From assembly GCF_002161215.1 (NCBI RefSeq), contig NZ_NFMB01000002.1:1-64000 (forward strand): a stretch of DNA of 64,000 bases, written 5' to 3'. The position numbers and the translations under genes were made by a program. The notes under the pieces were generated by a model, which saw only the letters and a list, made by a program, of their open reading frames with translations, ran no database searches and was not told where the DNA came from. Source of the stretch: Flavonifractor sp. An10 (GTDB lineage Bacteria; Bacillota; Clostridia; Oscillospirales; Oscillospiraceae). Position 1 is the stretch's first letter. Each line of letters opens with the position of its first letter. Below are positions 1,550 through 55,053 of this stretch, piece by piece.

Positions 1550-3294
1550 GTGGATATCACCGTGATTATCGACACCTTTTGGGTTCTGCTGGCCGCCATC
1601 CTGGTATTTTTCATGAACCTGGGATTCGCCTCGGTGGAGGCGGGCCTGGCCAGAGCGAAAACACCGTCAACATCCTGTCCAAAAACTTCATCGTCTTTGC
1701 CGTCTCGTCCCTGGGCTTCATGCTGCTGGGCTGGGGGCTCATGTTCGGCGGCGACAACCCCTTCGTGGGGACGCAGCACCTGTTCATCCTGGGCAGCTCC
1801 GACCTGTCCTTCTACGACGACACCCTGACCTCCAACGTGCCCTTCTGGGGCAAGTTCTTCTTCCAGCTGGTGTTCTGCGGCACCGCCGCCACCATCGTCT
1901 CCGGCGCGGTGGCCGAGCGCATCAAATACCTCTCCTTCATTGTCTTTTCCTTTGTGCTCACCCTGGTGATCTACCCCATCGCGGGCCACTGGATCTGGGG
2001 CGGCGGCTGGCTGGCCGACCTGGGCTTCCTGGACTTCGCCGGCGACTCGGCGGTGCACTCCGTGGGCGGCTGGGCCGCCCTGGCGGGCGCCATGATTCTG
2101 GGCCCGCGCATCGGCAAGTATGACAAGGACGGCAAGCCCCGGGCCATCCCCGGCCACAACATGTCCCTGGCGGTGATCGGCCTGTTTGTGCTGTGGCTGG
2201 GCTGGTTCGGCTTCAACCCGGGCTCCACCATGAGCTTCCAGAACCCCTCCGACGTCATGCACATCCTGGTGACCACCAACACCTCCGCCATTGCGGCGGT
2301 GCTCACCTCCACCGCCACCTCCTGGGTGTTCCTGGGCAAGCCGGATCTGGGCATGACCATCAACGGCTGCCTGGCGGGCCTGGTGGCCATCACCGGCGGC
2401 TGTGCCTACGTCAGCATTGTCAGCTCCCTGATCATCGGCGCCCTCTCCGGCGTGATCGTGGTGTTCGCCGTGGTATTCTTTGACCGCATCCATATTGACG
2501 ACCCGGTGGGGGCCACCTCCGTCCACCTGTGCTGCGGCGTGTTCGGCACCCTCTGCGTGGGCCTCTTCGCCCAGGAGGGGGTCACCACCCTGTCCGGCCG
2601 CAGCGGGCTGCTGTTCGGCGGCGGCGCGGGCCTGCTGGGTGTGGAGCTGCTGGGCATTGCAGCTGTCGGCGCCTTCACCTTCGCCTCCTCTGCCTTGGTG
2701 TGGCTGATCCTGAAGAAGACCATGGGCATCCGGGTGTCCCGGGAGGAGGAGCTCCAGGGTCTGGACATCGGCGAGCACGGCAATGCGGCCTATCCCGACT
2801 TTGCGCCGGCCGCCCCCACGGCGGAGCTGGATGGGGAGCCCGGGATGCCCGCCCCGGCTCCGGCCGCGGCCCCTGCCCCGGCGGAGGCCGTCAGTGCCGA
2901 CGCGGCGGTGCCCGTGGAACACCGGGTGTGCACCGGCCCCAAGCTGACGAAGGTCACCATTGTGGCAAGCCAGGCCAGATTCAGCCAGCTCCAGGAGGCG
3001 CTGGAGAGGCTGGGCATCACCGGCCTGACGGTGACCAATGTGTTCGGCTACGGCGCCCAGAAGGGCCACAGAACCTACTACCGCGGCGCGCCGGTGGAGG
3101 CCCGCCTGCTGCCCAAGCTGAAGGTGGACATCGTGGTGTCCAAGGTGCCGGTGGCCGAGGTGGTGGCGGCCGCCCGCAGAAGCCTGTATACCGGCAGCAT
3201 CGGCGACGGCAAGATCTTCATCTACGACGTGGAAAACGTGGTGAAGGTGCGCACCGGCGAGGAGGGGTACGACGCCCTCCAGGATACGGACTGA
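1550..3294 (+). CDS. amt: Ammonium transporter fused to a PII (GlnK) domain; apparent -1 frameshift
   Basis: The first 37 codons from GTG 1550 (RBS gggaggaaag) read in one frame and end in EAGLARAK. The Amt sequence then continues from about 1660 in another frame with NTVNILSKNF and runs to 3294. One A is missing from the run at 1658-1661 relative to a continuous frame. The rest is a complete Amt/Rh channel of about ten visible membrane segments, followed by an Ala/Pro-rich linker and a PII domain of about 110 residues with a T-loop-like QKGHRTYYRG. Amt imports ammonium and PII proteins gate it according to nitrogen status, so the fusion places the regulator on its target. The gene is either disrupted or misread by one base. 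Confidence 0.85.
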
Positions 3295-4213: not shown

Positions 4214-4534
4214 GTGGCCCGAAAGAAGCTGGAGACCCTGACGGAGCAGATGTTCTACGTGCTCCTCTCCCTGCGGAGGGAGCGGCACGGCTACGGGATC
4301 ATGCAGGCCATCACCGAGATGACAGGCGGCCGGGTCAGCGTGGGGGCAGGCACCCTGTATGCCCTGCTGGAGCGGTTTGAAAAGGACGGGCTGATCCGCT
4401 TTACCCGGACGGAGGAAAACCGGAAGTACTACCAGATGACGGAGGCGGGGGAACAGGCCCTGGAGGCGGAATACCAGCGTATCCGGCAGCAGGCGGCGGA
4501 CTGGGAGCGGATTATGAAGGAGGAAAAGTCATGA
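4214..4534 (+). CDS. PadR-family transcriptional regulator
   Basis: This 106-residue protein is a standard PadR winged helix. It has EQMFYVLLSLRRERHGYGIM, then GTLYALLERFEKDGLI (recognition helix and wing) and YYQMTEAGEQAL. PadR regulators are usually repressors that bind small molecules. GTG 4214 is preferred over an in-frame ATG at 4172, because the strong ggaggtgact sits 6 bases upstream of GTG while the ATG lies in the promoter. Its stop overlaps the start of the first DUF2812 gene by four bases (ATGA). Regulator and membrane proteins are therefore co-transcribed and translationally coupled. Confidence 0.92.
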   Translation: MARKKLETLTEQMFYVLLSLRRERHGYGIMQAITEMTGGRVSVGAGTLYALLERFEKDGLIRFTRTEENRKYYQMTEAGEQALEAEYQRIRQQAADWERIMKEEKS

Positions 4535-5835
4535 AGCGTCGATTTTCCCTGTTTACTTACCCGGTAATGGACATGAAGGCGGCGGAGGCGGAGCTGAACC
4601 GCCGGGCGGCCAAGGGGTGGCGGCTGGAGAAGATCTGGATGGGCCTCCTGGCGGTGTTTGTACCCGCCCACGTGCCGGTGCGCTACTGCCTGGACTGGTG
4701 CGACAACGTCAAGGATACGGAGCGGATGGACTACAAGGAGCTGCTCGCCCAGGCCGGGTGGGAGCACCGGATGGAGCTGCCCTACTGGAACCTGTACGAG
4801 GCCCCGGCGGGCACGGCCCCCATTCAGACCGACGGGGAGCTGGAGTACCAGCGGTTCCGGGACAAGGTGATGCGGCGGATGGTCAAGGGGATCCCGCTGA
4901 CTCTGCTGGTGGTGGGCATCCAGCTGCTCAACATCATCGCCCAGTCCGGTGAGTTCGGGGCCATGTCCGCCCTGATGTGGGCCTCCACCCTCCATATGAT
5001 GCTGGCGCTCCTGCTCCTCCTGCCCCTGTGGGGGCTGGGGGGCCTGGCCTGGCTGGGGCGGATGGCCCTGCGGCTGCACCAGTGGCGGCAGGCAGCCCGG
5101 GAGGACGGCCCCACCCCCGTGCCCGGCCGGTGGAGCGGCCTGGCGGCGGCCCTGCTCACCCTGGCCGGGTGGCTGTCGGTGGTTCTGGTCTGCGCCGCCG
5201 CGGTGTGGGATATGACCACCAATTGTGTGCCCACCCTGCCGTTTGCCGGGGTGTTCCTGCTGTGCGCGGGCATCCTGTTTGCGCGCTCCCTGTGGGAGCA
5301 GCACCAGACCAAGTTTGTGCGGCGCATGGCATCGCTGTGCCTGGCCACGGCCCTGTGCGGCGGGGCGGGCGGAATGGTCTTTTTCCGGCAGGCGGAGGCC
5401 ACCCTGCTGGAGCCGCCCCTGTCCGATCTCCACCTCCTGCCCGGGGTGACGGAGGTGTGGACGATGTGGGAGGAGCGCAGCCACGCCGCCACCTCCCTGC
5501 TCTCCTGCACCGACTGGGACGAGCTGGAGCCCGACGGGGAAACGGGATTCGGAATTCATGAGACGGTTTTGGGGGTTCGGATGGATGCCCCGGTGCGGGG
5601 CACCGCCTGGCGGGCCCGGTGGCCCTGGATGGCGGAGTGGGCGGCATCCCTCCAGCGGGGCGGCATGGAGCCGGTGGAGGGATACCCCGGCGTGTGGCGC
5701 CGGGAGACCAGGAAGGGGGAGCTGTGGCTTCTCCGCCGGGACACCCTGGTGCTGCGGGTGAAAAACGATCTGGAGCCGCTGGACGAGGACTGGCTGGCGG
5801 ATATGCTGGCCCAAATGGAGGAGGAAGGACGATGA
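4531..5835 (+). CDS. DUF2812 membrane protein, paralogue 1
   Basis: This 434-residue protein starts with a DUF2812 domain (MKRRFSLFTYPVMDMKAAEA, then GWRLEKIWMG, and LLAQAGWEHRMELP), a cytoplasmic domain of about 100 residues found almost only beside PadR genes. It is followed by membrane segments near residues 120-180 and 205-290. A soluble C-terminal half probably lies outside the cell. The start overlaps the padR stop and its own stop overlaps paralogue 2. Function is unknown, and PadR-DUF2812 pairs are thought to respond to envelope or chemical stress (weak inference). Confidence 0.85.
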   Translation: MKRRFSLFTYPVMDMKAAEAELNRRAAKGWRLEKIWMGLLAVFVPAHVPVRYCLDWCDNVKDTERMDYKELLAQAGWEHRMELPYWNLYEAPAGTAPIQTDGELEYQRFRDKVMRRMVKGIPLTLLVVGIQLLNIIAQSGEFGAMSALMWASTLHMMLALLLLLPLWGLGGLAWLGRMALRLHQWRQAAREDGPTPVPGRWSGLAAALLTLAGWLSVVLVCAAAVWDMTTNCVPTLPFAGVFLLCAGILFARSLWEQHQTKFVRRMASLCLATALCGGAGGMVFFRQAEATLLEPPLSDLHLLPGVTEVWTMWEERSHAATSLLSCTDWDELEPDGETGFGIHETVLGVRMDAPVRGTAWRARWPWMAEWAASLQRGGMEPVEGYPGVWRRETRKGELWLLRRDTLVLRVKNDLEPLDEDWLADMLAQMEEEGR

Positions 5836-7118
5836 AGCGTCGATTTTCCCTGTTTACATACCCGGTGATGGACATGAAGGCGGCGGAGGCGGAGCTGAAC
5901 CGCCGGGCGGCGGCGGGCTGGCGGCTGGAGAGGCTCTGGCTGGGTACGCTGGCCTCCTTTGTGCCGGCGGAGGAGCCGGTGTGCTACTGCATGGACTGGC
6001 TGGATCCGCTGAAAACCGACCAGCCTGGCTATGCCTCCCTGCTGGCGGAGGCCGGGTGGACGCGGCGGGCCCTGGTGGGTTATCAGGTGATCTACGAGGC
6101 CCCGGCGGGCACCACCCCCATCCAGACCGACAGCGCTCTGGAGTACCAGCGGTTCCGGAAGAAGGTGCTGCGGCGGATGCTGCTCGGCGGGGGTATCCTG
6201 ACGGCCCTCCTGCTGCTGATTTTTGCGCTGGTGCTGGCGGTATACGGCGGACGCATCTCCTGGGCGGATGTGGTGGGGAGCATGGCGGCCTCCAGCCTGT
6301 CCGCCGTGCTCCAGCTCATGCTGCCGCTGCTCCTGGTGATCGGCGTGCTGTGGCTGGGGCGCATGGCTCTTCGGCTGCGCCAGTGGACGCGGTGCGCCCG
6401 GGAGGGGGAGCCCTTCCCGGTGCCGGGCCGGGTGAGTGCCGGCGCGGCAAAGCTGGGCACCCTGCTGGTCTGGCTGTGCCTCGCCCTCCTGCTGGCGGCC
6501 CTGTGCCTGGACATCCTGGACGGCAAGGTGAACCTGGGCTGGGCCGTGGGCCTGGCCGTCGGCGGCTTTCTCTGCCTGCGGATTTATCCCGGCATGGACG
6601 CGGAGCTCCGGCGGCGGCAGCAGTGGGCAGCCGGGGGAGCGGTGGTGCTGGCCGCCATGGTGCTGCTCGTCCCCCGGCTGACCCCCGACGGGCTCACCGC
6701 ACCCCTCTACCCGGATCGGCCCCTGGCGGAGGCCCGGCTGCTGGAGGGGGAGGACAACTGGTGCGTCCGTCACCCGGACGAGGCCTCCCTGCTGGTGTCC
6801 TGCAGCCGGTGGGAGGAGGGCGCGGAGGACGGCTCCGCCTGGCTGGAGGGCCGGTGCTGGAACATCCGCAGCGATTTCCTGGCCGACCGGGTGGCGACGG
6901 AGTATCTGGAGGAGCTGGGGCCGGAGAACCAGGCCCCTCTGCCCGGCTATGACCAGGTGTGGACGGCACCGGAGGCGCTGCGCTACGCCAACGGAAATAC
7001 GGCGGATCTCTGGCTGCTCCGGCAGGGGAATGTGATTGTGCGGCTGGAGACCACCCCGGGGCTCCTGGAGGAACAGGATCTGGACAACATTCTGACTCAA
7101 CTGGAGGGCGGCGCATGA
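5832..7118 (+). CDS. DUF2812 membrane protein, paralogue 2
   Basis: This 428-residue protein shares its first 20 residues exactly with paralogue 1, and the first bases of the two genes are also nearly identical. That points to recent duplication or conversion. It has the same layout: an N-terminal DUF2812 domain, four or more hydrophobic segments, then a C-terminal soluble region with FLADRVATEYLEELGPE. It overlaps paralogue 1 by four bases (ATGA) and paralogue 3 likewise. Unlike paralogue 1, its C-terminal domain lacks obvious sequence identity, so the outer half evolves faster. Confidence 0.85.
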   Translation: MKRRFSLFTYPVMDMKAAEAELNRRAAAGWRLERLWLGTLASFVPAEEPVCYCMDWLDPLKTDQPGYASLLAEAGWTRRALVGYQVIYEAPAGTTPIQTDSALEYQRFRKKVLRRMLLGGGILTALLLLIFALVLAVYGGRISWADVVGSMAASSLSAVLQLMLPLLLVIGVLWLGRMALRLRQWTRCAREGEPFPVPGRVSAGAAKLGTLLVWLCLALLLAALCLDILDGKVNLGWAVGLAVGGFLCLRIYPGMDAELRRRQQWAAGGAVVLAAMVLLVPRLTPDGLTAPLYPDRPLAEARLLEGEDNWCVRHPDEASLLVSCSRWEEGAEDGSAWLEGRCWNIRSDFLADRVATEYLEELGPENQAPLPGYDQVWTAPEALRYANGNTADLWLLRQGNVIVRLETTPGLLEEQDLDNILTQLEGGA

Positions 7119-8221
7119 AAACGCTGTGGAAAGGCTTTCCCTACGGCTCCGCCGACCGGGAGGCGGCGGAGGCATGGCTCAACGAACTGGGCAGACAGGG
7201 CTGGCGGCTGGAGAAGGTGCGCCTGGGCGTTCTGGCGGTGTTTGTGCAGTCCGGGGAGCCGTGCACCTACTGCGTGTGTACGCAGCCCGGCTCCTTCTAC
7301 GGCCGGGGCCGGGCGGAGTACGAGCAGCTGTGCTGGGACGGGGGCTGGCAGTGGACGGCCAACGTACGGAGCATGGACATCTTTGTCTCCCGGCCGGGGC
7401 ACACCCCCGTGCCCCTCATCACCGACCCGGAGGTGGAGCGGCGGGAGGAGGCCCGGCGGAAGCGGCGGGGGCGGGTGTTCCTGGCCGTACTGCTGGCCCC
7501 GCTGCTGGCGGCCATCGCGTGGAGCTTCCGGCCCGGCGGGCGGCCCTGGCACGCCATTCTGGAGTCCAACCGCCTGCTGGCGTGCCTGCTGGCCCTGGCC
7601 CTGTGCGGCCTGATCCCGGCCGGGGCGGCGGTGTGGAGGAAGCTGCGGCCACCCAGGCCCCGGAGCGGCCGGGCGGTGCGGCGGCGGGCCGCCCTGTGGC
7701 TGGCGGTACTGCCCCTGTGGTATGTCCTCTGCTTTGGACTCGCTTTCACCGAGGGGCTGGCGGAAATCGTGGCGTGGGTGGACGCCCCGCCGGCGGCCCG
7801 GGCGCTGGGGGTGGATGCCCCCGGGGACATGGCGTACCGGCAGGTGCGCGCCTCCGTTCTGGTGGAGGGGGAGCACTACAGCCAGCCCCTGGTGGGGGCG
7901 GATCACACGGAGTATGGCTCCGTGAAGCTGGACCGCTACCGCTGCCGGGGGGAGGGGACGGCCCGCCTGCTGGCGGAGCTGGTGCGGCTGGACGAGACCC
8001 GGGGCTCCCCCGGCCATCTGGACGGCACCCACGGCCCCCTCACCGGCGCGGAGGTGCCCGTAGAGGGCGCCTGGGCGTGGCACGGCCGGGGGGAGGGCCG
8101 CACCTGCCTGATCCTCCGCTGCGGCGAGGGGGTGGCGGTGGCGGAGACTGACCAGCGCGTGCCGCCGCCGGATCACCAGACCTGGGCGGCCCTCCGGGCC
8201 CTGCTGGAGGAATGGCCGTAG
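7115..8221 (+). CDS. DUF2812 membrane protein, paralogue 3
   Basis: This 368-residue protein begins MKTLWKGFPYGSADREAAEA and keeps the DUF2812 markers WLNELGRQGWRLEKV and a Trp-rich second half. Hydrophobic segments near residues 130-150, 165-185 and 210-235 are followed by a soluble C-terminal domain. It is coupled to paralogue 2 by ATGA overlap. Its stop codon TAG is followed directly by ggcgcgccgg, which matches the start of the dispersed GTAG-type palindromes, so the gene end may have been fixed by a REP insertion. Confidence 0.82.
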   Translation: MKTLWKGFPYGSADREAAEAWLNELGRQGWRLEKVRLGVLAVFVQSGEPCTYCVCTQPGSFYGRGRAEYEQLCWDGGWQWTANVRSMDIFVSRPGHTPVPLITDPEVERREEARRKRRGRVFLAVLLAPLLAAIAWSFRPGGRPWHAILESNRLLACLLALALCGLIPAGAAVWRKLRPPRPRSGRAVRRRAALWLAVLPLWYVLCFGLAFTEGLAEIVAWVDAPPAARALGVDAPGDMAYRQVRASVLVEGEHYSQPLVGADHTEYGSVKLDRYRCRGEGTARLLAELVRLDETRGSPGHLDGTHGPLTGAEVPVEGAWAWHGRGEGRTCLILRCGEGVAVAETDQRVPPPDHQTWAALRALLEEWP

Positions 8222-8261
8222 GGCGCGCCGGTTGAGATGCAGATGTAAGGAGGCTTCGGCC

Positions 8262-9383
8262 ATGAGAGAGAAAACCAAATGCACCCGCTGGTTCCGCTAC
8301 ACCATCGAGGACGCCAAGGCGGCCCAGGCGGAGCTGGATCAGCGGGCGGAGCAGGGCTGGGAGCTGGAGGAGGTGGGCCTGTTCACCGCCACCTTCCGCC
8401 GCGCGGAGCACCCCCGCCCCTGCTGGGTGGAGCCCGCCCGGTGGAAGAGCGTGCGGCGGAAGGACGAGGATGCCCGGGCGGACTACCTGGCCCTGTGTGA
8501 CGAGGCCGGGTGGGAGCTGATCAGCGAGGACGGCGGCCTGTTCTACTTCCGGGCCAGGGAGGGGACAGACCCGGCTCCCATCCAGACCGACGCGGGTGTG
8601 GAGTGGGAGGACGTGTGGAAGAAGGCCCTGGCTGACCAGGCGTGGAACCTATTGTATATCGCCGTTTCTTGGGCAATTTGTGCGATCGGGCGGTATCTCA
8701 GAGATCAGCCCCGGCTGTGGGAGCTGTTTCTGTCTAACCTGGCTATGGCGGCCCAACTCCTCCTGCTCCTGTGGCTGGGGATCGACCTGTTCCTGGGCCT
8801 GCGGGTGGTCTTCTACCGGAAGCGGTGCCGCCGGGCGGCGGAGGGGGAGCCCTTCCCCGTGCCCCGGCGGTGGGCCGCCCGGTTCCGGGGGGCCTATCCC
8901 CTGGTCTGCGGGGCACTGATCGCCGCCACCGCCCTGTGCGTCCTGCTGGCCGTGGGGGAGGGGGAGACCAACCACATTGACCATGCGGCCTACACCCAGG
9001 AGCAGCACTCGGTGCTGGGGGACTATTTTGAGTACCGCCGGTTCAGCCAGGCGGAGGGCGATCTGTGGGTGGAGCGGGCGGACTGCCGGGCCGGCTGGCT
9101 GGCGGACTGGATCTGCGGGGACTTCCGGGCCTCCGAGGGGAATGCGGATCGGGTTCACCGGGAGGTTCACCCACACGACGGCGCGGTCATCCCCCGGGAG
9201 GCGGAGCTGGGCTTTGACGAGGCCTGGATCTATTCCATCGGGGAATACAGCGGCCTAATTCTACGGGATGGAGACCAGGTGGCGCGCATCGAGGCCGAGG
9301 AGACCGACTTGACCAGCGCCGAGACCCTGGGGGCCATCCGCGCCTGGCTGGCGGAGTCCCCGGACTGGCAGCCGGAGGCATAG
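8262..9383 (+). CDS. DUF2812 membrane protein, paralogue 4
   Basis: This 373-residue protein starts at ATG 8262 with aaggagg upstream. DUF2812 features include WFRYTIEDAKAAQAELDQRA, GWELEEVGLFTATF and LCDEAGWELISEDGG. Membrane segments lie near residues 130-150, 160-185 and 215-235. A C-terminal soluble domain contains GFDEAWIYSIGEYSGLILRD. It is separated from paralogue 3 by 40 bases with a small REP-like remnant, so translational coupling is lost here. Confidence 0.83.
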   Translation: MREKTKCTRWFRYTIEDAKAAQAELDQRAEQGWELEEVGLFTATFRRAEHPRPCWVEPARWKSVRRKDEDARADYLALCDEAGWELISEDGGLFYFRAREGTDPAPIQTDAGVEWEDVWKKALADQAWNLLYIAVSWAICAIGRYLRDQPRLWELFLSNLAMAAQLLLLLWLGIDLFLGLRVVFYRKRCRRAAEGEPFPVPRRWAARFRGAYPLVCGALIAATALCVLLAVGEGETNHIDHAAYTQEQHSVLGDYFEYRRFSQAEGDLWVERADCRAGWLADWICGDFRASEGNADRVHREVHPHDGAVIPREAELGFDEAWIYSIGEYSGLILRDGDQVARIEAEETDLTSAETLGAIRAWLAESPDWQPEA

Positions 9384-9424
9384 CGGGCGGAGTCCATCCG
9401 CCCGCCGGAGAGAAAGGTGGTAGC

Positions 9425-10057
9425 ATGAAACGGACTTTATGGAAGCTGTTCCCCTTTACCGCCATCGACAGCAAGGCGGCGGAGGCGTGGCTCAACCGGC
9501 TGGGGGAACAGGGCTGGCGGCTGGGCTCCGCCGGGCTGTACACAGCCCGGTTCTGGCAGACCGGGGAGCCGGTATCCTACGCCGTCACTCCGGAGCAGGG
9601 GCGGAGAGAGGACTTTCTTGTCCTTTGCCGGGACGCGGAGTGGGAACTGGCGGCCCGCAGCCGGAAGATGGAGCTGTACGCCTCCCGGGCGGGGGCGCGC
9701 CCGATCCCCCTGGAGACCGACCAGGCGCTGGAGTGCCGCAGCTTCCTCCGCCGGGGAATCCGCTGGCTGGCCCTGGAGGCGGCTTTGACGCTGATGTTCC
9801 TGCTCAATCTGCGGCAGCTCCTGGACATGGGCGGGCCCACGGACTGGCCGGCGCTGGCTCTGTGGCTGGGGGAGCTGGCCCTGTGGGGCGGGTGCCTGGC
9901 TGGGGATGGGATTTACTGGCTCCGGGTTCGCCGGGCCGGTGAGCTGCTCCCCCGCTCCATGGCGGGGGTCTGGTTGCGGTGGTGGGCCGTATGGGCGCTG
10001 GTGCTCCTGGGTGCGGGGCTGCTGGCTGTCATGTGGCTCCGGCCCGCATACCTGTGA
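9425..10057 (+). CDS. DUF2812 membrane protein, paralogue 5 (short form)
   Basis: This 210-residue protein starts MKRTLWKLFPFTAIDSKAAE and has a full DUF2812 domain plus two or three hydrophobic segments. It stops at LLAVMWLRPAYL, where the longer paralogues continue into an outer domain of more than 130 residues. The missing half may reflect truncation or a specialised short form. A strong RBS (gagagaaaggtgg) and an open frame argue that it is expressed. Confidence 0.78.
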   Translation: MKRTLWKLFPFTAIDSKAAEAWLNRLGEQGWRLGSAGLYTARFWQTGEPVSYAVTPEQGRREDFLVLCRDAEWELAARSRKMELYASRAGARPIPLETDQALECRSFLRRGIRWLALEAALTLMFLLNLRQLLDMGGPTDWPALALWLGELALWGGCLAGDGIYWLRVRRAGELLPRSMAGVWLRWWAVWALVLLGAGLLAVMWLRPAYL

Positions 10058-10071
10058 GGGAGGGGGATAGG

Positions 10072-10481
10072 ATGGACGGGATCCGGATGGAGCAGTTCCC
10101 CTTCCGGGTATTGGACTACAAGGCTGGGGAGGCGTGGCTCAACGAGCTGGGGGCGGCTGGCTGGCCCTGACAGTGCTGCCACAGCTCCTGAGGGTGCTCC
10201 TCTTCCCCAGACAGGAGCTGCACCGGGTTCTGACCCTGCCGGGCTACGGCCTGCTGCTGTCGGCCTATGTGCTGGCCCTCCTCACGCCTGCCGCCGCGGA
10301 GGGACGGGATGTGGTGTGGCTGCTGCGCTGCCGCCGGGCGGGGCGGCTTCTGGCCCGCAGCCCGGCGGCGGTACGCCGGTGGAGGCGGGCGGCACTGGCC
10401 GCCCTGGGAGCGGCGCTGCTGCTGGCGGCTGTGGGGATGGTGGAGCTTGTGCCCGCTCTTGCATCCCGCATCGGCTTGTGA
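10072..10481 (+). pseudogene. DUF2812 paralogue 6, broken by internal deletion
   Basis: The start MDGIRMEQFPFRVLDYKAGE and WLNELGAAGW match the DUF2812 N terminus, but a stop follows at 10168-10170. From about 10150 a different frame carries the membrane part seen in paralogue 5, with RRAGRLLARS matching RRAGELLPRS and a final hydrophobic helix. About 80 codons between the two blocks are missing and the frame is changed. It is a genuine remnant at the tail of the array. Confidence 0.75.
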
Positions 10482-15511: not shown

Positions 15512-15633
15512 CAGGGGCGGCCTGCGGCCGCCCGCGTAGGGTGCGACGACCCGGCGCGCCGCGGCAACCTGCCGGCAGTGTAGGGCGCGGCATCCCTGAC
15601 GCGCCGCAGCAGGGCGGGGGCTTGCCCCCGCCG
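15511..15633 (+). repeat. Cluster of four REP-type palindromes
   Basis: Four short palindromes lie head to tail: 15511-15536 (GCAGGGGCGG type), 15536-15561 (GTAGGGTGCGACGACC type), 15580-15606 (GTAGGGCGCGGCATCC type) and 15609-15633 (gggcgggggcttgcccccgcc type). The second is close to the sequence embedded twice in the RAYT gene at 34593 and 34763. They sit directly behind ilvA. Confidence 0.8.
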
Positions 15634-23956: not shown

Positions 23957-23980
23957 GCAGAGGCGGGCGGAAACCCGCGC

Positions 23981-24049
23981 TTACTCCAGGACGGCGCCGC
24001 GAGCGGCGCTGGTGACCAGCTTGGCATACCGGGCCAGATACCCGGTCTT
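23981..24049 (-). pseudogene. Displaced copy of the ilvD 3' end
   Basis: These 69 bases encode [22 protein letters not shown] and a TAA stop, the same 22 residues as the true end of ilvD at 24206-24274. Nine bases differ, every one at a third codon position. It lies behind a 156-base hairpin-rich insert. It has no start of its own and should not be translated. Confidence 0.9.
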
Positions 24050-24205
24050 GCATGCCCCATGGGCCGGCGCAGCCGCCTCATGGGGGCCCAAGTGAGGATA
24101 AAATCTGCCCGGCGGAAGTGAATCCCGCCGGGCATCAAGGTTTTGCCTGGGGCAAAACGCTTGGGACGCGCTGACGCGCGGGGCAAGGTCAAGACCGCCG
24201 AAGGC
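24050..24205 (-). mobile_element. Structured insert family A behind ilvD
   Basis: Read in the ilvD direction it contains ccaagcg, hairpin 1 (24158-24140, gttttgcc/ggcaaaac), the linker cttgat, hairpin 2 (24133-24107, gcccggcgg/ccgccgggc around attcac), a linker with gatttt, and hairpin 3 (24085-24055, ccccatg/catgggg). Hairpin 3 ends five bases from the displaced ilvD end. The inserts behind uvrA and era show the same order. No protein is encoded. Confidence 0.7.
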
Positions 24206-25867
24206 TTACTCCAGCACAGCACCCCGTGCGGCGCTCGTTACCAGCTTGGCATACCGGGCCAGGTAGCCGGTCTTGACCTTGGGTTCGGGACAGACCCACT
24301 TGGCGCGCCGCGCGGCCAGGGCGGCCTCGTCCACCTGGACGTCGATCCTGTTGGCGGGGATGTCGATGGAGATGATGTCCCCCTCCTCCACCAGGGCGAT
24401 GGGGCCGCCCTGGGCGGCCTCGGGGCAGACGTGGCCGATGGCGGCGCCCCGGGTGGCGCCGGAGAACCGGCCGTCGGTGATCAGGGCCACGGACTCGCCC
24501 AGGCCCATGCCCACAATGGCGGAGGTGGGGTTGAGCATCTCCCGCATGCCGGGGCCGCCCTTGGGGCCCTCGTAGCGGATGACCACCACGTCGCCGGGGA
24601 CGATCTTGCCGGCGTAGATGGCGGCGATGGCCTCCTCCTCGCCGTCAAACACCCGGGCGGGGCCGGTGTGGGCCATCATCTCGGGGGCGACGGCGGAGCG
24701 CTTGACCACGCAGCCCTCGGGGGCCAGGTTGCCCTTGAGCACGGCGATGCCGCCGTCCTGGGAGTAGGGGTTGTCGATGGGGCGGATGATCTCGGGGTTG
24801 CGGTTGACCACCCCCTCCAGGTTCTCGGCCATGGTCTTGCCGGTGACGGTCATGACGGAGGTGTCCAGCAGGCCCTTTTTCGTCAGCTCCTTCATGACGG
24901 CGTACACGCCGCCGGCGCCCTCCAGATCCTCCATGAAGGTGTCCCCGGCGGGGGCCAGGTGGCACAGGTTGGGGGTCTTGGCGGAGATGGCGTTGGACAT
25001 GTCCAGATCCAGCTCGATGCCGCACTCGTGGGCGATGGCGGGCAGGTGGAGCATGGTGTTGGTGGAGCAGCCCAGGGCCATGTCCACCGTCTCGGCGTTG
25101 TGGAAGGCGGCGGGGGTCATGATGTCCCGGGGCTTGATGTCCTTCTCCACCAGCTCCATGATCTGCATGCCCGCGTGCTTGGCCAGCCGCAGGCGGGCCG
25201 ACCACACGGCGGGAATGGTGCCGTTGCCCCGCAGGCCCATGCCGATGGCCTCGGTGAGGCAGTTCATGGAGTTGGCGGTGTACATGCCGGAGCAGGAGCC
25301 GCAGGAGGGGCAGGCGTTGTTCTCATAGTCCTCCACGCCGGCCTCGTCCAGCTTGCCGGCCTTGTAGGCGCCCACGGCCTCGAACATGTGGCTCAGGCAG
25401 GAGCGGCGGCCGTCCTCCAGCCTTCCGGCCAGCATGGGGCCGCCGGAGACGAAGATGGTGGGGATGTTCACCCGGGCGGCGGCCATGAGCAGGCCGGGCA
25501 CGTTCTTGTCGCAGTTGGGGATCATCACCAGGCCGTCGAACTGGTGGGCGATGGCCATGGCCTCGGTGGAGTCGGCGATCAGATCCCGGGTGACCAGGGA
25601 GTATTTCATGCCGATGTGGCCCATGGCGATGCCGTCGCACACGGCGATGGCGGGGAACTCCACCGGGGTGCCGCCGGCGGCCCGGACGCCGGCCTTCACC
25701 GCCTCGGCGATCTTGTCCAGGTTCATGTGGCCGGGGACGATCTCGTTGTAGGAGCACACCACGCCGATGAGGGGCCGCTCCAGCTCCTCCTTGGTGTAGC
25801 CCAGGGCATAGAACAGGGAGCGGTTGGGGGCGCGCTCCACGCCCTTCGTCACGTTGTCGCTGCGCAT
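24206..25867 (-). CDS. ilvD: Dihydroxy-acid dehydratase
   Basis: This 553-residue enzyme carries out the third step of valine and isoleucine synthesis, dehydrating dihydroxy-acids to 2-oxoacids with an Fe-S cluster. Cluster cysteines are seen in PNCDKNVPG and [19 protein letters not shown]. The start [20 protein letters not shown] is normal. The last 22 codons and the stop are duplicated behind the gene on the far side of a hairpin-rich insert. The copy fused to the gene uses rarer codons (GTA, ACG, GCA, GGT), unlike the displaced copy. A divergent GntR regulator shares its upstream region. Confidence 0.96.
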
Positions 25868-29725: not shown

Positions 29726-29824
29726 TCACAGCATGCGCTTGAGGTACTGCCCGGTATAGGACGCCTCACAGGCGGCCACCTCTTCGGGGGTGCCCGTGAC
29801 AACGATGTTTCCGCCGCCGTCGCC
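29726..29824 (-). pseudogene. Displaced copy of the uvrA 3' end
   Basis: These 99 bases encode 32 residues and a TGA stop that match the last 32 residues of uvrA at 30 positions ([17 protein letters not shown] at the start, [11 protein letters not shown] at the end). Most base differences are at third codon positions. A long hairpin at about 29680-29712 beyond it looks like the original end structure of uvrA. Confidence 0.9.
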
Positions 29825-29951
29825 AATCCCCACGCGGCAGGCCGCGCGGGGGCCCCGGATTGATTTTATCTGCTCGGGCGGAGTGAATCCGCCCGGCATC
29901 AAGGTTTTGCCAGAGGCAAAACGCTTGGTGGGCGGCGGCGACGGCCGCTTT
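29825..29951 (-). mobile_element. Structured insert family A behind uvrA
   Basis: In the uvrA direction it contains ccaagcg, hairpin 1 (29922-29904, gttttgcc/ggcaaaac), cttgatgcc, hairpin 2 (29894-29876, gggcgga/tccgccc around ttcac), gcagataaaatc, and hairpin 3 (29851-29828, ccccgcgcggc/gccgcgtgggg). Hairpin 3 ends three bases from the displaced uvrA end. Hairpins 1 and 2 nearly match the ilvD insert. Hairpin 3 has a different sequence but the same place and shape. Confidence 0.7.
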
Positions 29952-32774
29952 TTACAGCATCCGCTTGAGATACTGCCCGGTGTAAGAGGCGGCGCACTGC
30001 GCCACCTCTTCGGGGGTGCCCGTGACGACGATGTTTCCGCCGCCGTCGCCGCCCTCGGGGCCCAGGTCGATGATGTGGTCGGCGGTCTTGATCACGTCCA
30101 GGTTGTGCTCGATGACCACCACGGTGTTGCCCACCTCCACCAGCTTCTGGAGCACCTCGATGAGCTTGTGCACGTCGGCGGTGTGCAGGCCGGTGGTGGG
30201 CTCGTCCAGGATATAGATGGTCTGGCCGGTGGAGCGCTTGGCCAGCTCGGTGGCCAGCTTGACCCGCTGGGCCTCGCCGCCGGACAGGGTGGTGGAGGGC
30301 TGGCCCAGCTTCACGTACCCCAGGCCCACCTCGTAGAGGGTCTGGAGCTTGTTGTACAGCTTGGGCAGGTTCTCGAAGAAGGGGAGGGCCTCCTCCACCG
30401 TCATCTCCAGCACCTCGTAAATGTTCTTGCCCTTGTAGCGCACCTCCAGGGTCTCCCGGTTGTACCGCTTGCCCTTGCACACCTCGCAGGGCACGTAGAT
30501 GTCGGGGAGAAAGTGCATCTCGATTTTCAGCAGGCCGTCGCCCTGGCAGGCCTCGCACCGGCCGCCCCGCACATTGAAGGAGAACCGCCCGGCGTTGTAG
30601 CCCCGGCTCTTGGCGTCGGGGGTGGAGGCGAACAGCTCCCGGATGTCGTTGAACAGCCCGGTGTAGGTGGCCGGGTTGGAGCGGGGGGTGCGGCCGATGG
30701 GGGACTGGTCGATGTCGATCACCTTGTCCAGGAATTCCTCCCCCTCAATGGAGGCGTGCTTGCCCGGCCGGGTCTTGGCCCGGTTCAGATCGGCGGCCAG
30801 CCGCTTGAAGAGGATCTCGTTGACCAGGGAGGATTTTCCGCTGCCGGACACGCCGGTGACGCAGGTGAAGGTGCCCAGGGGGATGGACACGTCCACATTC
30901 TGCAGGTTGTTCTCCGCCGCGCCCCGGATGGTGAGGAAATTTCCATTGCCCTTCCGCCGCTCGCTGGGCACGGGGATCTTCTTCCGGCCCGACAGGTAGT
31001 CGCCGGTGATGGAGCCGGGGGTGTTCATGACCTCCTCGGCGGTGCCGCAGGCCACCACCTGGCCGCCGTGGACGCCGGCGCCGGGGCCGATGTCCACGAT
31101 GTAGTCGGCGGCGCGCATGGTGTCCTCGTCGTGCTCCACCACCAGCAGGGTGTTGCCCAGATCCCGCAGGTGCTTCATGGTGTCCAGCAGCATGTCGTTG
31201 TCCCGCTGGTGCAGGCCGATGGAGGGCTCGTCCAGGATGTAGAGCACCCCCATGAGGGAGGAGCCGATCTGGGTAGCCAGGCGGATGCGCTGGCTCTCGC
31301 CGCCGGACAGGGTGGCGGCGGCCCGGCTCAGGGTCAGGTACTGGAGCCCCACGCTCTGGAGGAAGCCCAGCCGGCTCTTGATCTCCTTGAGGATCCGGCC
31401 GGCAATCATCATCTTCTGCTCGCTCAGCTCCAGGTGCTCGATGAAGTCCAGTGCCTCGGTCACCGACTTGTGGCAGAAGGCGTCGATGTTGATGTCCCCC
31501 ACCGTGACGGCCAGGGCCTCCTTGCGCAGGCGCTTGCCGCCGCAGTCGGGACAGGGGTGCTCGGCCATGCACTCCTCCAGCTCCCGCCGCATGGCGTCGC
31601 TCTGGGTCTCCTTGTAGCGGCGCTCCAGGTTGTTGACCACGCCCTCGAAGGCCTGCATCAGGGTGCCCTTGCCGTTGGCCCGGTCGTAGGTCAGCTTCAG
31701 CTTCTCCCCGCGGGTGCCGTAGAGGATTACGTCCATGACCTCCGGGGGAAGCTCCTCCACCGGGGTGGTGAGCTTGAAGCCGTACTGCTTGGACAGGGCG
31801 TCGAAGTACATCCGGGAGATGGAGTCCCCCTTGATGTTGTTCCAGCCGGAGGCGGTGATGGCCCCGTCCAGGATGGACAGCTTCTTGTTGGGGATGATCA
31901 GGTCGGGATCCACCTTCAGCTGGGAGCCCAGGCCGGTGCAGGTGGGGCAGGCGCCGAAGGGGTTGTTGAAGGAGAACATGCGGGGGGACAGCTCCTCGAT
32001 GGAAATGCCGCAGTCCTCACAGGCGTAGTTCTGGGAGAACAGGATGTCCCGATCCTCGTTCACGATGTTGATCACCACCAGGCCGCCGGCCAGGGCGGCG
32101 GCGGTCTCCACGCTGTCGGTGAGGCGGCGGTGGATGTCCTCCTTGATCACCAGGCGATCCACCACGATCTCGATGTTGTGCTTCTTATTCTTGTCCAGGG
32201 GGATCTCTTCGGTGAGGTCATAGAGGGAGCCGTCGGCCCGGCAGCGGACGTAGCCCGACTTGCGGGCGTCCTCAAAGATCTTCTGGTGGGTGCCCTTCTT
32301 GCCCCGCACCACCGGGGCCATGACCTGGATGCGGGTGGCCTCGGGCAGGGCCATCACCTGGTCGATGATCTGGTCGATGGTCTGCTGCTGGATCTCCTTG
32401 CCGCACTTGGGGCAGTGGGGGGTGCCCACCCGGGCCCACAGCAGGCGCAGGTAGTCGTAGATCTCCGTCACCGTGCCCACGGTGGAGCGGGGGTTCTTGG
32501 AGGTGGTCTTCTGGTCGATGGAGATGGCGGGGGACAGGCCGTCGATGTAGTCCACGTCGGGCTTCTCCATCTGGCCCAGGAACATCCGGGCGTAGGAGGA
32601 CAGGGACTCCACATAGCGGCGCTGGCCCTCGGCGTAGATGGTGTCAAAGGCCAGGGAGGACTTGCCGGAGCCGGACAGGCCGGTGAGCACCACCAGCTTG
32701 TCCCGGGGAATGTCCACGTCGATGTTTTTCAGGTTGTTCTCCCGTGCGCCTTTGACAAAAATATGGTCGAGCAT
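29952..32774 (-). CDS. uvrA: Excinuclease ABC subunit A
   Basis: This 940-residue damage-recognition ATPase of nucleotide excision repair has two ABC modules: Walker [15 protein letters not shown] near residue 31 and [14 protein letters not shown] near 640, with [12 protein letters not shown] and [12 protein letters not shown] signatures. Two zinc fingers are visible (CEDCG...CPTC and CEACQ...CEVC). ATG 32774 is chosen after aaaggagaaacc. uvrB lies upstream in the same direction, with four other genes between. Its last 32 codons are duplicated behind the gene across a hairpin insert. Confidence 0.97.
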
Positions 32775-34032: not shown

Positions 34033-34419
34033 TCAGATAACCTCTTTCTTCGTGCCCAGCTCCCGCTGGACGTATTTGGGCAGCTTTTCCACCACCAGCC
34101 GGTGGGAGAGCGCGCACAAGTCCCGCAGCACCTGGTCGGGCAGTTCCCCGTCCAGCAGCACCGCGATCCAGGTGCGCTTGTCGCAGTAAAAGCCGGGGAG
34201 GATCTCGGGGTACTGCTCCCGCAGGCCCTCCGTCAGCCGGGGGTCGCATTTCAGGTTCACCAGGGGATGGCCGCCGTAGACCTTGTATTTTGAGTCTGGC
34301 GTGCACAGGGCAGCGAAGTGCCTGCCGCGCACGGTGTAGCGGTGCCAGTTCCACTCCTCCTTGTAGCCGTGCTCCGCCCCGGGCAGGGCCCGCAGCCAGC
34401 CGTCCAGCCAGTCATACAT
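34033..34419 (-). CDS. MmcQ/YjbR-family protein
   Basis: This 128-residue protein has the YjbR pattern: YTVRGRHFAALCTPDSKYKV, LVNLKCDPRLTEGLREQYP and LPGFYCDKRTWIAVLLDG. YjbR proteins adopt a CyaY-like DNA-binding fold of unknown role. Its start overlaps the end of the RAYT transposase by eight bases, and it ends just before the aldo/keto reductase. Confidence 0.85.
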   Translation of the reverse strand: MYDWLDGWLRALPGAEHGYKEEWNWHRYTVRGRHFAALCTPDSKYKVYGGHPLVNLKCDPRLTEGLREQYPEILPGFYCDKRTWIAVLLDGELPDQVLRDLCALSHRLVVEKLPKYVQRELGTKKEVI

Positions 34420-34909
34420 AGTAGCAGTCCTCCCGCCATTTCAGTGGATTGGTGTCAATGTAATCCCATACGCGCAGATAATCCGCCTCATTGCGGATCA
34501 CATGGTCGTGAAAAGTAGATTGCCACAGATTTGTTCCGGCATTTTGGTTGGTAAACCGCTTCAGGGCGGCAATCATGCGGGAAACCTGCTGCGTGGGGCG
34601 CGACGACCCCGGCGCGCCCGGTTCCGGGGTGTCAATCGAGAGCAGCAGGTGAACATGATTGGGCATGATGACAAAATGATGGAGCGTCACATTTGGATAG
34701 GCCACGGAAAGTGTGTTCAGGAAAGAGTGCAGGGAACGGCCATAGGCGGTGAGGACAACAGAGGGCGCGCCGGGGTCGTCGCGCCCCACGATTTGAGAGA
34801 GAATGCACCGGCGCTCCCTCGTGCAGAAGGTCAAAAAATAGCAGCCGGCGGAGCCATAATCCCAATGGGGCAGCCGGCCAGGGCGGCCCTTTTTTGTGTC
34901 AGATTTCAA
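34412..34909 (-). CDS. REP-associated tyrosine transposase (RAYT, Y1 family)
   Basis: This protein of about 165 residues is an HUH single-strand DNA nuclease related to IS200 transposases. It has CYFLTFCTRERRCILSQIVG at the start, the metal-binding HVH in VIMPNHVHLLLSID, and the nucleophile helix in RNEADYLRVWDYIDTNPLKW. RAYTs cut and join REP palindromes at a GTAG mark. TTG 34909 is chosen with GAGGGG overlapping the uvrB stop. The gene lies eight bases behind uvrB and its end overlaps yjbR. Two REP-like stretches are built into its reading frame in opposite orientation. Confidence 0.9.
   Translation of the reverse strand: MKSDTKKGRPGRLPHWDYGSAGCYFLTFCTRERRCILSQIVGRDDPGAPSVVLTAYGRSLHSFLNTLSVAYPNVTLHHFVIMPNHVHLLLSIDTPEPGAPGSSRPTQQVSRMIAALKRFTNQNAGTNLWQSTFHDHVIRNEADYLRVWDYIDTNPLKWREDCYYV
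34593..34789. repeat. Perfect 27-bp inverted pair inside the RAYT gene
   Basis: The arm at 34593-34619 begins gtggggcgcgacgacc and ends ggcgcgccc. The arm at 34763-34789 is its exact reverse complement. They encode GRDDPGAP and GAPGSSRPT in the RAYT protein. The same core (gcgacgaccc-ggcgcgcc) occurs as a free palindrome at 15536-15561. The first four bases are GTGG rather than the GTAG of intergenic copies. Confidence 0.85.
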
Positions 34910-53195: not shown

Positions 53196-54089
53196 ATGGA
53201 CATCAAGAAATCCGGCATGATCGCCATTGTGGGCCGGCCCAACGTGGGCAAGTCCACCCTGACCAACGCCCTGGTGGGGGAGAAGATCGCCATCGTCACC
53301 AACAAGCCCCAGACCACCCGCAACCGCATCTGCGCGGTGGTGAACAAAAACGGCTGCCAGTACGTGTTTCTGGACACGCCGGGCCTGCACAAGGCCCGCA
53401 CCCGGCTGGGGGACTACATGGTGAAGGTGGTGCGGGAGAGCGTGGCCGACGTGGACGCGGTGCTCCTGCTGGTGGAGCCCATCGACCACATCGGCGGCCC
53501 CGAGGCGGAGCTGATCCAGCGCATCAAGAGCCTGCATGTGCCCGCCGTGCTGGTGATCAACAAGATCGACACGGTGGAGAAGGAGAAGCTGCTCTCCGTC
53601 ATGCAGGTATACGGAGCGGCCCACGACTTCGCCGCCATCCTGCCCATCTCCGCCAAAAACGGTGAAGGGGTGGACGAGCTGCTGGAGCTGCTCTCCCAGT
53701 TCCTGCCCGAGGGGCCCCAGCTTTTCCCCGAGGACATGATCACCGACCAGCCGGAGCGGCAGATCTGCGCCGAGATTTTGCGGGAGAAGCTGCTGCTCTG
53801 CCTGGACAAGGAGATCCCCCACGGCACCGCCGTGGAGTTGACCCGCTTCTCCGAGCGGGAGGACGGGGTGGTGGAGCTGGACGCCACCATCTACTGCGAG
53901 AAGGCCAGCCACAAGGGCATCATCATCGGAAAGGGGGGTGCCATGCTCAAGAAGATCTCCTCCCTGGCCCGCTCGGACATGGAGCGGTTCCTGGACGCCA
54001 AGGTGTTCCTCCAGACCTGGGTAAAGGTGAAGGAGAACTGGCGCGACAACTTGAATTTGATCCATAACTTCGGATACCGGGACGAATGA
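53196..54089 (+). CDS. era: GTPase Era
   Basis: This 297-residue GTPase binds the 3' end of 16S rRNA and assists 30S assembly. G1 GRPNVGKSTLTNAL, G3 DTPGLHKART, G4 NKIDTVEKEK and the KH domain IIIGKGGAMLKKISSLARSD are intact. Its last 17 codons and stop recur at 54251-54304 across a 161-base structured insert. They differ there only by one Arg codon (CGC versus AGG). In the ancestral order the era stop probably overlapped the recO start directly. Confidence 0.96.
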   Translation: MDIKKSGMIAIVGRPNVGKSTLTNALVGEKIAIVTNKPQTTRNRICAVVNKNGCQYVFLDTPGLHKARTRLGDYMVKVVRESVADVDAVLLLVEPIDHIGGPEAELIQRIKSLHVPAVLVINKIDTVEKEKLLSVMQVYGAAHDFAAILPISAKNGEGVDELLELLSQFLPEGPQLFPEDMITDQPERQICAEILREKLLLCLDKEIPHGTAVELTRFSEREDGVVELDATIYCEKASHKGIIIGKGGAMLKKISSLARSDMERFLDAKVFLQTWVKVKENWRDNLNLIHNFGYRDE

Positions 54090-54250
54090 GCGCAAGGCAG
54101 GGGTTGCAGGCCAGTTCTCCGCGAGCGGGAGCGAGCTGCGCCTGCGGCGCGCCAAGCGTTTGCGAAGCAAACCTTGCCGCAGGGCGGATTTACTCCGCCC
54201 GAGGAAGAGAAGGAAAAGGGTTCCCACAGGATGGGACATCCTGTGGGAGG
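54090..54250 (+). mobile_element. Structured insert family A behind era
   Basis: After about 60 bases it reads gccaagcg, hairpin 1 (54158-54172, gtttgc-gaa-gcaaac), ccttgccg, hairpin 2 (54182-54200, gggcgga-tttac-tccgccc), gaggaag, and hairpin 3 (54222-54248, cccacaggatg/catcctgtggg). Hairpin 3 ends two bases before the displaced era end. The order is the same as behind ilvD and uvrA. Confidence 0.72.
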
Positions 54251-54304
54251 AACTGGAGGGACAACTTGAATTTGATCCATAACTTCGGATACCGGGACGA
54301 ATGA
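54251..54304 (+). pseudogene. Displaced copy of the era 3' end
   Basis: These 54 bases encode NWRDNLNLIHNFGYRDE and TGA and differ from the true era end at two bases in one Arg codon. The final ATGA still provides the recO start codon, so this copy keeps the original era-recO junction. Confidence 0.93.
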
Positions 54305-55053
54305 GCGGCGCGCACATCAGCACCCAGGGGCTGGTGCTCCGGGAGGTCAACTACAAAGAGGCGGACAAGATTCTCACCGTCCTCACCGCCGAGGGGGGCA
54401 GGCGCACCGTCAAGGCCCGGGGCTGCCGCCGGAAGGGGAGCCCTCTGGCCGCCTCGGCCCAGCTGCTGGTCTACTCGGACATGACCCTGTTCGAGTACCG
54501 GGATCACTTCACCCTCAACGAGGCGGAATCCCTCCAGCAGTTCTGGCACATGAAGTCCGACGTGGTGAAGCTGAGCCTGGCCTCCTACTTCGCGGAGGTG
54601 ATGGAGGCCGTGGCGGTGGAGGGGCGGCCCGACCCGGCGGCCCTGTCGCTGATCCTCAACGCCCTGTACGCCCTGGATCAGCTCAACAAGCCCCTGGCCC
54701 TGGTAAAGGCGGCCTACGAGCTGCGCCTCATGTGCCTGGCGGGGTATGAGCCCCTGGTGGACGCCTGCGCTGTCTGCGGCGTGTCTGAGCCGGAACAGCC
54801 CCGCTTCCACCTGACCGAGGGGGTGCTCCACTGCGCGTCCTGCCGGGTGGGGGAGGGGGACGACCTGCCCCTGACAACCGGGGCGGTGGCCGCCATGCGC
54901 CACATCGTCTACGGCAATCCCAAGCGGCTGTTCTCCTTCCAGGCGGACGGGGACAGCCTGGCCCGCCTGGGGCGGGCCTGCGAGCAGTTTCTCACCACAC
55001 AGCTCGACCGGGGGTTTCGCACCCTGGATTTTTATCATCAATGGGGGAATTGA
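54301..55053 (+). CDS. recO: DNA repair protein RecO
   Basis: This 250-residue protein has an N-terminal OB fold (STQGLVLREVNYKEADKILT, GGRRTVKARGCRRKGSPL) and a helical domain with four cysteines (CAVCG...CASC) for zinc. RecO anneals single strands and loads RecA with RecR. The start overlaps the displaced era stop. The insert between era and recO means that recO translation can no longer be coupled to full-length Era. Confidence 0.93.
   Translation: MSGAHISTQGLVLREVNYKEADKILTVLTAEGGRRTVKARGCRRKGSPLAASAQLLVYSDMTLFEYRDHFTLNEAESLQQFWHMKSDVVKLSLASYFAEVMEAVAVEGRPDPAALSLILNALYALDQLNKPLALVKAAYELRLMCLAGYEPLVDACAVCGVSEPEQPRFHLTEGVLHCASCRVGEGDDLPLTTGAVAAMRHIVYGNPKRLFSFQADGDSLARLGRACEQFLTTQLDRGFRTLDFYHQWGN

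Follow-up and report, generated by a model that had tools for sequence, protein, structure and literature searches.

The era–recO junction and two sister sites in the window

The DNA analysed here, a stretch of 64,000 nt from Flavonifractor sp. An10 (the window), carries era and recO on the forward strand with an insert between them (Table 1). Both genes, as well as uvrA, ilvD and uvrB in the same window, have NCBIfam matches above the cut-offs. As the initial annotation had claimed, the end of era is duplicated around the insert: 58 nt are present twice, with a spacing of 215 nt and 97% identity, and both differences fall in a single Arg codon (CGC/AGG). The same annotation was right about the displaced copy, which contains the recO start and is adjoined by a perfect hairpin (TCCCACAGGATG/CATCCTGTGGGA, 54222–54248) that stops 1 base short of it. 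The recO start is indeed kept, which follows from a long duplication spanning the junction. Terminal inverted repeats of at least 12 nt were sought in the era insert and none was found. The RNA fold of 54086–54304 beats 200 of 200 shuffles on both strands (z −3.55 and −4.55).

Two features go beyond the initial annotation, namely an 11-nt reverse complement of the left boundary (L') and a genome-wide family of similar inserts. In the sense of the element, the order is landing site (L), first copy of the gene end (E1), filler, L', hairpins A, B and C, linker, hairpin D and second copy of the gene end (E2); the part from L' to D measures ~120–160 nt and has no ORF. Two further cases with the same anatomy lie in the window, where uvrA and ilvD end on the minus strand. 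Because this anatomy is shared by uvrA, ilvD and most copies of the family, the repeat at era is beyond chance.

Table 1. Positions of the era, uvrA and ilvD features in the window
Feature	Position	Strand	Remark
era CDS	53196..54089	+	final 55 nt now inside copy 1
L, landing-site stretch GGAGAACTGGC	54032..54042	+	spans left duplication boundary; copy 1 starts at 54035
E1, era-end copy 1	54035..54092	+	in frame with era
L' GCCAGTTCTCC	54110..54120	+	11-nt reverse complement of L; proposed guide
Hairpin A region	54121..54150	+	directly 3' of L'
Conserved core of era insert	54151..54214	+	model R1, 68.8 bits
Parts of era-insert core	hairpin B 54153..54176; hairpin C 54182..54200	+	followed by start of linker
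3' terminal hairpin D, GGGTTCCC lead	54217..54249	+	arms 54222..54233 and 54237..54248
E2, copy 2, displaced era end	54250..54307	+	holds recO start
recO	54301..55053	+	NCBIfam
uvrA E1 (copy 1)	29954..30050	-	repeat pair with 29728..29824
uvrA L' GCCGTCGCCGCC	29934..29945	-	
uvrA element core	29862..29929	-	R1, 81.2 bits
uvrA E2 (copy 2)	29728..29824	-	
ilvD E1 (copy 1)	24204..24275	-	repeat pair with 23979..24050
ilvD L' CGGTCTTGACCTTG	24184..24197	-	
ilvD element core	24097..24165	-	R1, 67.9 bits
ilvD E2 (copy 2)	23979..24050	-	

An element family and its site-complementary stretch

A BLAST search with the era insert gave 19 matches in the own genome, itself included. Model R1, built from 17 core sequences, extended this to 56 matches at E ≤ 0.01. 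Across 40 genomes, R1 matched in 21: the own genome, all 19 congeners (6–54 copies) and one of 15 genomes of the order (G030); none of the five genomes from other genera of the family had a match. Core matches numbered 93 in G030, 44 in G008, 35 in G019 and 12 in G018. G030 belongs to another family of the same order, and its hairpin B differs (e.g., L069). Its copies showed short repeats only (18–32 nt), in 3 of the 13 examined, which speaks against the explanation favoured below.

One search pattern had no match in viral contigs and a second had one; phage records queried with the era insert, and plasmid records queried with the element of L020, each returned one partial match. A viral contig (L229, 4964–5127) carries two tandem element-like units scoring 41 and 35 bits with R1. 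At L024/L010, a transposase-like reading frame, which we take to be of the mutator/IS256 type, lies just behind an element core without hairpin D.

L', which follows E1, matches in reverse complement the landing site that spans the left boundary. The sample comprised 107 copies of the genus (56 own, 51 congener), with 13 copies of G030 kept apart; a copy was tested if a duplication of at least 30 nt began 20–60 nt past the core, which gave 74 tested copies and left out 33 of the 107. An L' score of at least 9 was reached by 67 of these 74, as against 5% for swapped sites (20 swaps per copy) and 8% for the sense orientation. Complementarity to positions −3 to +6 is 88–94%, and the partner of +1 lies 70–113 nt downstream in 56 copies and 47–57 nt downstream in 11; a fixed helical spacing was rejected, the distances being spread too widely. 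Two observations run against the explanation favoured below: seven of the 74 copies (L027, L039, L145:3750, L137, L050, L146:9640 and L061) lack a convincing L', and the uvrA L' of G019 and G014 does not fit the present site.

Among 56 non-tandem copies, the mismatch of L' stays at 9–12% in all four classes of E1/E2 divergence, which run from 1% to 24%. Such flatness is expected if L' arrived with the element. We also considered, and rejected, selection keeping L and L' paired. The ilvD site of G008 looked compensatory, yet its two copies are near-identical there, and re-insertion or correction is as likely as selection; the misfits at uvrA of G019 and G014 undercut the idea further. In two loci with a gene ending in ADAMIWQGVSY (L145, 1112–1328, and L065), presumably dehydrogenase-like, L' starts right after an apparent native terminator, and the extra length of E1 is about that of the hairpin.

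Filled and empty sites and the origin of the gene-end copies

No R1 match was found at the era end in the 17 congener loci in view, the other two of the 19 congeners giving no proper era match, and in 8 of these loci the first base of recO comes 1 nt after the era stop. Empty junctions in relatives, which the initial annotation had proposed to look for, do exist, and all 17 agree with its account of an insertion that preserved the era end as well as the start of recO. The other two sites are mostly empty as well: an R1 match is present at the ilvD end in 2 of 18 congener loci (G019 and G008; 16 empty) and at the uvrA end in 3 of 19 (G019, G014 and G001; 16 empty). The own genome is filled at all three genes alike; related species carry filled and empty alleles of the same site, as is expected of an allele-specific homing element.

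The same position of era is filled in 5 of 80 era loci besides the own one, some of the 80 being incomplete. A spacer shared by all related genera, which had been named as fatal to recent insertion, is accordingly not what these loci display. The five loci lie outside the genus: L153 (Candidatus Intestinimonas stercoravium), L156 (Clostridiales CCNA10), L201, L209 and L227. Their elements are diverged relatives, and by eye each L' resembles its own era, as in L153 (GGCCAGTTTTCTT vs own era AAGAAAACTGGC) and L156 (GCCAATTTTCTTT vs AAAGAAAATTGG). In L201, L' fits the own era over ~10 nt; in L209 and L227 there is one mismatch, which would be a G.U pair. L153 also carries a tandem second unit at era (2962–3254), whose decay, mostly A-to-G and T-to-C, appears by eye alike across gene end, L' and hairpins.

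The era insertion is recent only in the sense that no congener in view has it. The initial annotation had based recency on the near-identity of the two era ends, and here it found no support: the mismatch of L' is no greater in copies whose E1 and E2 are more diverged, and copy 1 can be native in one part and element-borne in another. As a clock, near-identity is unreliable here, and by itself it is weak evidence of age, since E1 may be native for the most part and the copies may be corrected mutually (ilvD of G008; the uvrA L' of the own genome vs G014). If the explanation favoured below is right, gene-end duplications in this genus should not be taken as simple insertion clocks.

The duplications measure 31–123 nt, with a median of 63 (60 non-tandem of the 74 tested copies). 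Sense copies at gene ends make up 45 of 60, and antisense copies at gene starts the other 15. E1 keeps the stop codon of the host gene or, in the antisense copies, its start codon; by eye, E1/E2 identity often ends at this codon, with each copy having a different but working end. At L017/L039 (minus strand), an antisense case at a gene start, copy 1 has by eye an apparent ribosome site of its own and a TTG start, and copy 2 has an ATG start. Of 62 copies, 60 have an ungapped duplication and a frame that can be assigned; between their E1 and E2, 172 codons differ synonymously and 49 non-synonymously, with 23% synonymous expected at random. Judged from the sequences, this is a pattern as between orthologues.

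That E2 looks coding, with an internal stop in 1 of 60 copies, could reflect translation of both gene ends, each of them conserved, the segment from E1 to D being removed from the mRNA like an intron so that L is joined to E2. L' would then align both exon ends. We regard this as quite improbable: the one internal E2 stop (L053), a start codon lost from E2 at the L018/L042 site, and changes in E2 of L153 and L156 that are, by eye, mis-sense all count against it, and a foreign E1 accounts for the synonymous pattern without splicing. Translation of both ends was ranked low after the uvrA phylogeny and the single decayed E2 copies.

Support for a foreign E1 comes from uvrA of one congener, G001. 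Its E2 is nearest to the element-free species G015, G009 and G010 (8–10 of 88 differences), and the sequence after E2 is nearly the same as in G015 and G009. Within E1, positions 0 to +48 are nearest to G009, and positions +48 to +96 are nearest to the E1 of the own genome, G019 and G014 (4–5 of 48). These affinities support a mosaic E1 beside a native E2, the right half of E1 being of the element type, at one site in one species. Against it, two empty species, G004 and G011, differ from the right half of E1 at 6 of 48 positions and are thus almost as near, the windows upstream have varying nearest neighbours, and in the uvrA tree the E2 of the own genome and of G014 cluster with the E1s. L123 and L138 look like further cases of an E1 that is native, then foreign. 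Across copies, E1/E2 mismatch is modestly higher farther in (240/1708 at 8–47 nt, 174/878 beyond), a difference confounded by proximity to non-coding sequence.

A mosaic E1 also fits recombination, and one might argue for an ordinary insertion with an unusually long target duplication that spread from species to species by plain homologous recombination, L' being a by-product of fold-back repair. Long duplications occur throughout the family, and L' can be rewritten to fit (uvrA, own genome vs G014). This account has little probability in our view: it sits badly with the presence of L' in 67 of 74 copies, its distance being roughly set, with diverged elements found repeatedly at the same position of era, and with the era insert having no terminal inverted repeat as long as 12 nt.

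Proposed homing, candidate enzymes and known systems

The sequences show the anatomy, recurrence at one position of era, alleles with and without the element and, at a single site, support for a mosaic E1. Guided by them, we lean, with some reserve, towards reading the era–recO insert as a copy of a mobile mini-element, non-coding and non-autonomous, whose homing is directed at a single place in a single gene. L' would serve as a guide, base-pairing over the point of cleavage in the target, from about −3 to +6, and tolerating ~10% mismatch. As the anatomy suggests, an enzyme would join the end after hairpin D to the native gene end, always at the same nucleotide, and this native end would then be the displaced E2. 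The left joint would form through homology inside the gene end, so that E1 is native at its left and element-borne at its right; uvrA of one congener supports this step, and a few further copies hint at it. E1 would act both as a homology arm and as a spare gene end, and the host gene would survive, E1 retaining in the sequences its stop (or start) codon.

Dozens of relatives with a shared design suggest a new kind of self-targeting mobile element. Tentatively, and with confidence falling somewhat short of even, we would generalise this to a new class based on guide-programmed homing: a coding-free unit of ~120–160 nt would pair over ~10–14 nt across the cut point, have its 3' hairpin joined there and bring a spare gene end, and every lineage, whether of era, uvrA, ilvD or another gene, would have its own guide and spread between species separately. 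The homing explanation gives no account of the first colonisation of a new gene, with a new L' and E1. A search of the open-access literature, with preprints outside its scope, found no similar element, and this is the sole basis for calling it undescribed. If the explanation is true, bacteria harbour tiny elements that choose chromosomal sites by base pairing, with a spare end protecting the host gene, a natural counterpart of gene-drive designs that carry the target's end along. Testable questions follow, on the enzyme that reads L', on the moving nucleic acid (RNA or DNA) and on the way in which a further gene comes by its own guide.

Hairpins B and C show covariation. The alignment used for this has 115 matches in 106 distinct rows, with two truncated fragments and five loci from beyond the genus among them; it was fitted to the model and hence leans toward structure. 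In it, 97.9% of cells are paired and both-side changes occur in 16 of 19 pairs (278 cells). None of 500 shuffles reaches any of five measures, and in the initial 17 sequences, aligned without the model, 12 of 19 pairs show both-side changes. Hairpin D is variable among the family copies. Wobble is rare in helices 1 and 3, with 14 G.T and 8 A.C cells (p = 0.29).

One version of the homing explanation, which we rate as rather unlikely, builds on these covarying hairpins and has RNA as the moving form: L' would resemble the internal guide of an intron, and an RNA ending at hairpin D would be reverse transcribed at a nick between L and E2 (target-primed reverse transcription), with the flank converted. 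It would explain a 3' end fixed after hairpin D, the geometry of a long staggered duplication and, at the one gene end of L145 and L065, an L' starting right after the apparent native terminator. It is weakened by G.U being not clearly above A.C in the counts just given and by the 15 of 60 copies that lie antisense at gene starts. Nor does a reverse transcriptase keep company with the element: RVT_1 (PF00078) was not found in 13 of 19 congeners, G008 (44 copies) and G019 (35) among them, nor in G030 (93), many of these genomes being incomplete (G008 and G019 are ~80% complete), and none of 24 reverse transcriptase loci contains an element core. Reverse transcriptase was rejected as the mobiliser, PF00078 not following copy number across the 40 genomes, although an enzyme supplied in trans from beyond these genomes is conceivable.

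Another version, about as improbable as the RNA-based one, names a different enzyme: an IS200/IS605-type single-stranded DNA element would be moved in trans by a Y1 transposase, with L' as the guide next to the base of the left hairpin, and precise excision of the unit between the L/E1 and D/E2 boundaries would restore the gene. Almost wobble-free stems and 12 Y1_Tnp matches in the own genome agree with this. So does the topology of IS608, whose guide lies 5' of the hairpin base and pairs with a cleavage site kept in the left flank, according to passages of two papers (PMC5934647, PMC6006769); passages from the same source place IS608 insertion 3' of a target tetranucleotide, which does not match. 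The orientation of the element showed no relation to local GC skew (20 of 42 placements agree, the skew being weak), and no replication-strand bias was seen, which would be another point against a Y1 mechanism. PF01797 was missing in 10 of the 19 congeners and in G030, many genomes being incomplete. Neither PF01797 nor NF047646 matched in G018, G019 (81% complete) or G030, despite their 12, 35 and 93 core matches, respectively.

RAYT-like genes occur in 8 of 20 genomes of the genus, all under the curated cut-off, the single match of G004 having been excluded as IS200-like; they follow copy number only loosely (p = 0.10). Y1 transposase and RAYT were both rejected as mobilisers for want of a clean link with the copies, and among RVT_1, Y1_Tnp and RAYT no partner protein tracks the element.

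By analogy, the topology appears nearest to IS608, as far as the passages cited go: in both, a guide beside a subterminal hairpin matches the left cleavage site (a predicted pairing in our case), and hairpins lie near both ends. The element differs in a site-specific guide of ~10–14 nt, as against 4 nt in IS608, in its gene-end duplication of 31–123 nt, and in that no linked transposase was found and no strand bias was seen. Elements of the IS200/IS605 family, IS608 included, are not known to duplicate their target on insertion, a further difficulty for the Y1-based version. IS1634 does make an unusually long target duplication, and the MITEs of IS1634-type elements likewise are non-autonomous and have long, variable ones. 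Setting the family apart from these are the absence of terminal inverted repeats of at least 12 nt at the era insert, the guide and an E1 that is apparently partly foreign.

Group I and II introns and inteins, too, are found at a single site of a single gene in different species, some alleles being filled and others empty. They carry flanking sequence along on transfer, for which support here comes from uvrA of G001 only, and the proposed pairing of L' resembles the internal guide or EBS pairing of such introns. The element, at ~120–160 nt from L' to D, has no ORF, and Rfam 15 returned chance-level matches only, none credible, for one window stretch and six loci. The host gene, moreover, would be kept by a spare gene end, and intron-like removal enters here only as the rival reading weighed above.

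REP sequences and REPINs with their RAYT share with the family small size, many hairpins, lack of autonomy, high copy number and a place at gene ends, and the genome does have RAYT-like genes. They differ from it in that GTAG occurs anywhere in only 2 of 62 elements, in the long duplication and site-complementary L' of the latter, and in RAYT-like genes not clearly tracking its copies; the genome has separate GTAG-led repeats. In the window, a RAYT-like transposase gene (34412–34909, minus strand; NF047646, 69.4 bits vs a cut-off of 80) lies directly after the uvrB stop and by eye contains an inverted repeat within its own reading frame. Palindromic repeats of families D7, D10 and D11, several of them GTAG-led, are found at 15602, 37853, 42149, 48573, 52452, 52573 and 53104, and look like classical REP-like sequences distinct from the era-type family. 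Finally, repeat families D1–D4, at 4514–10165, correspond to several diverged tandem paralogues of one protein.
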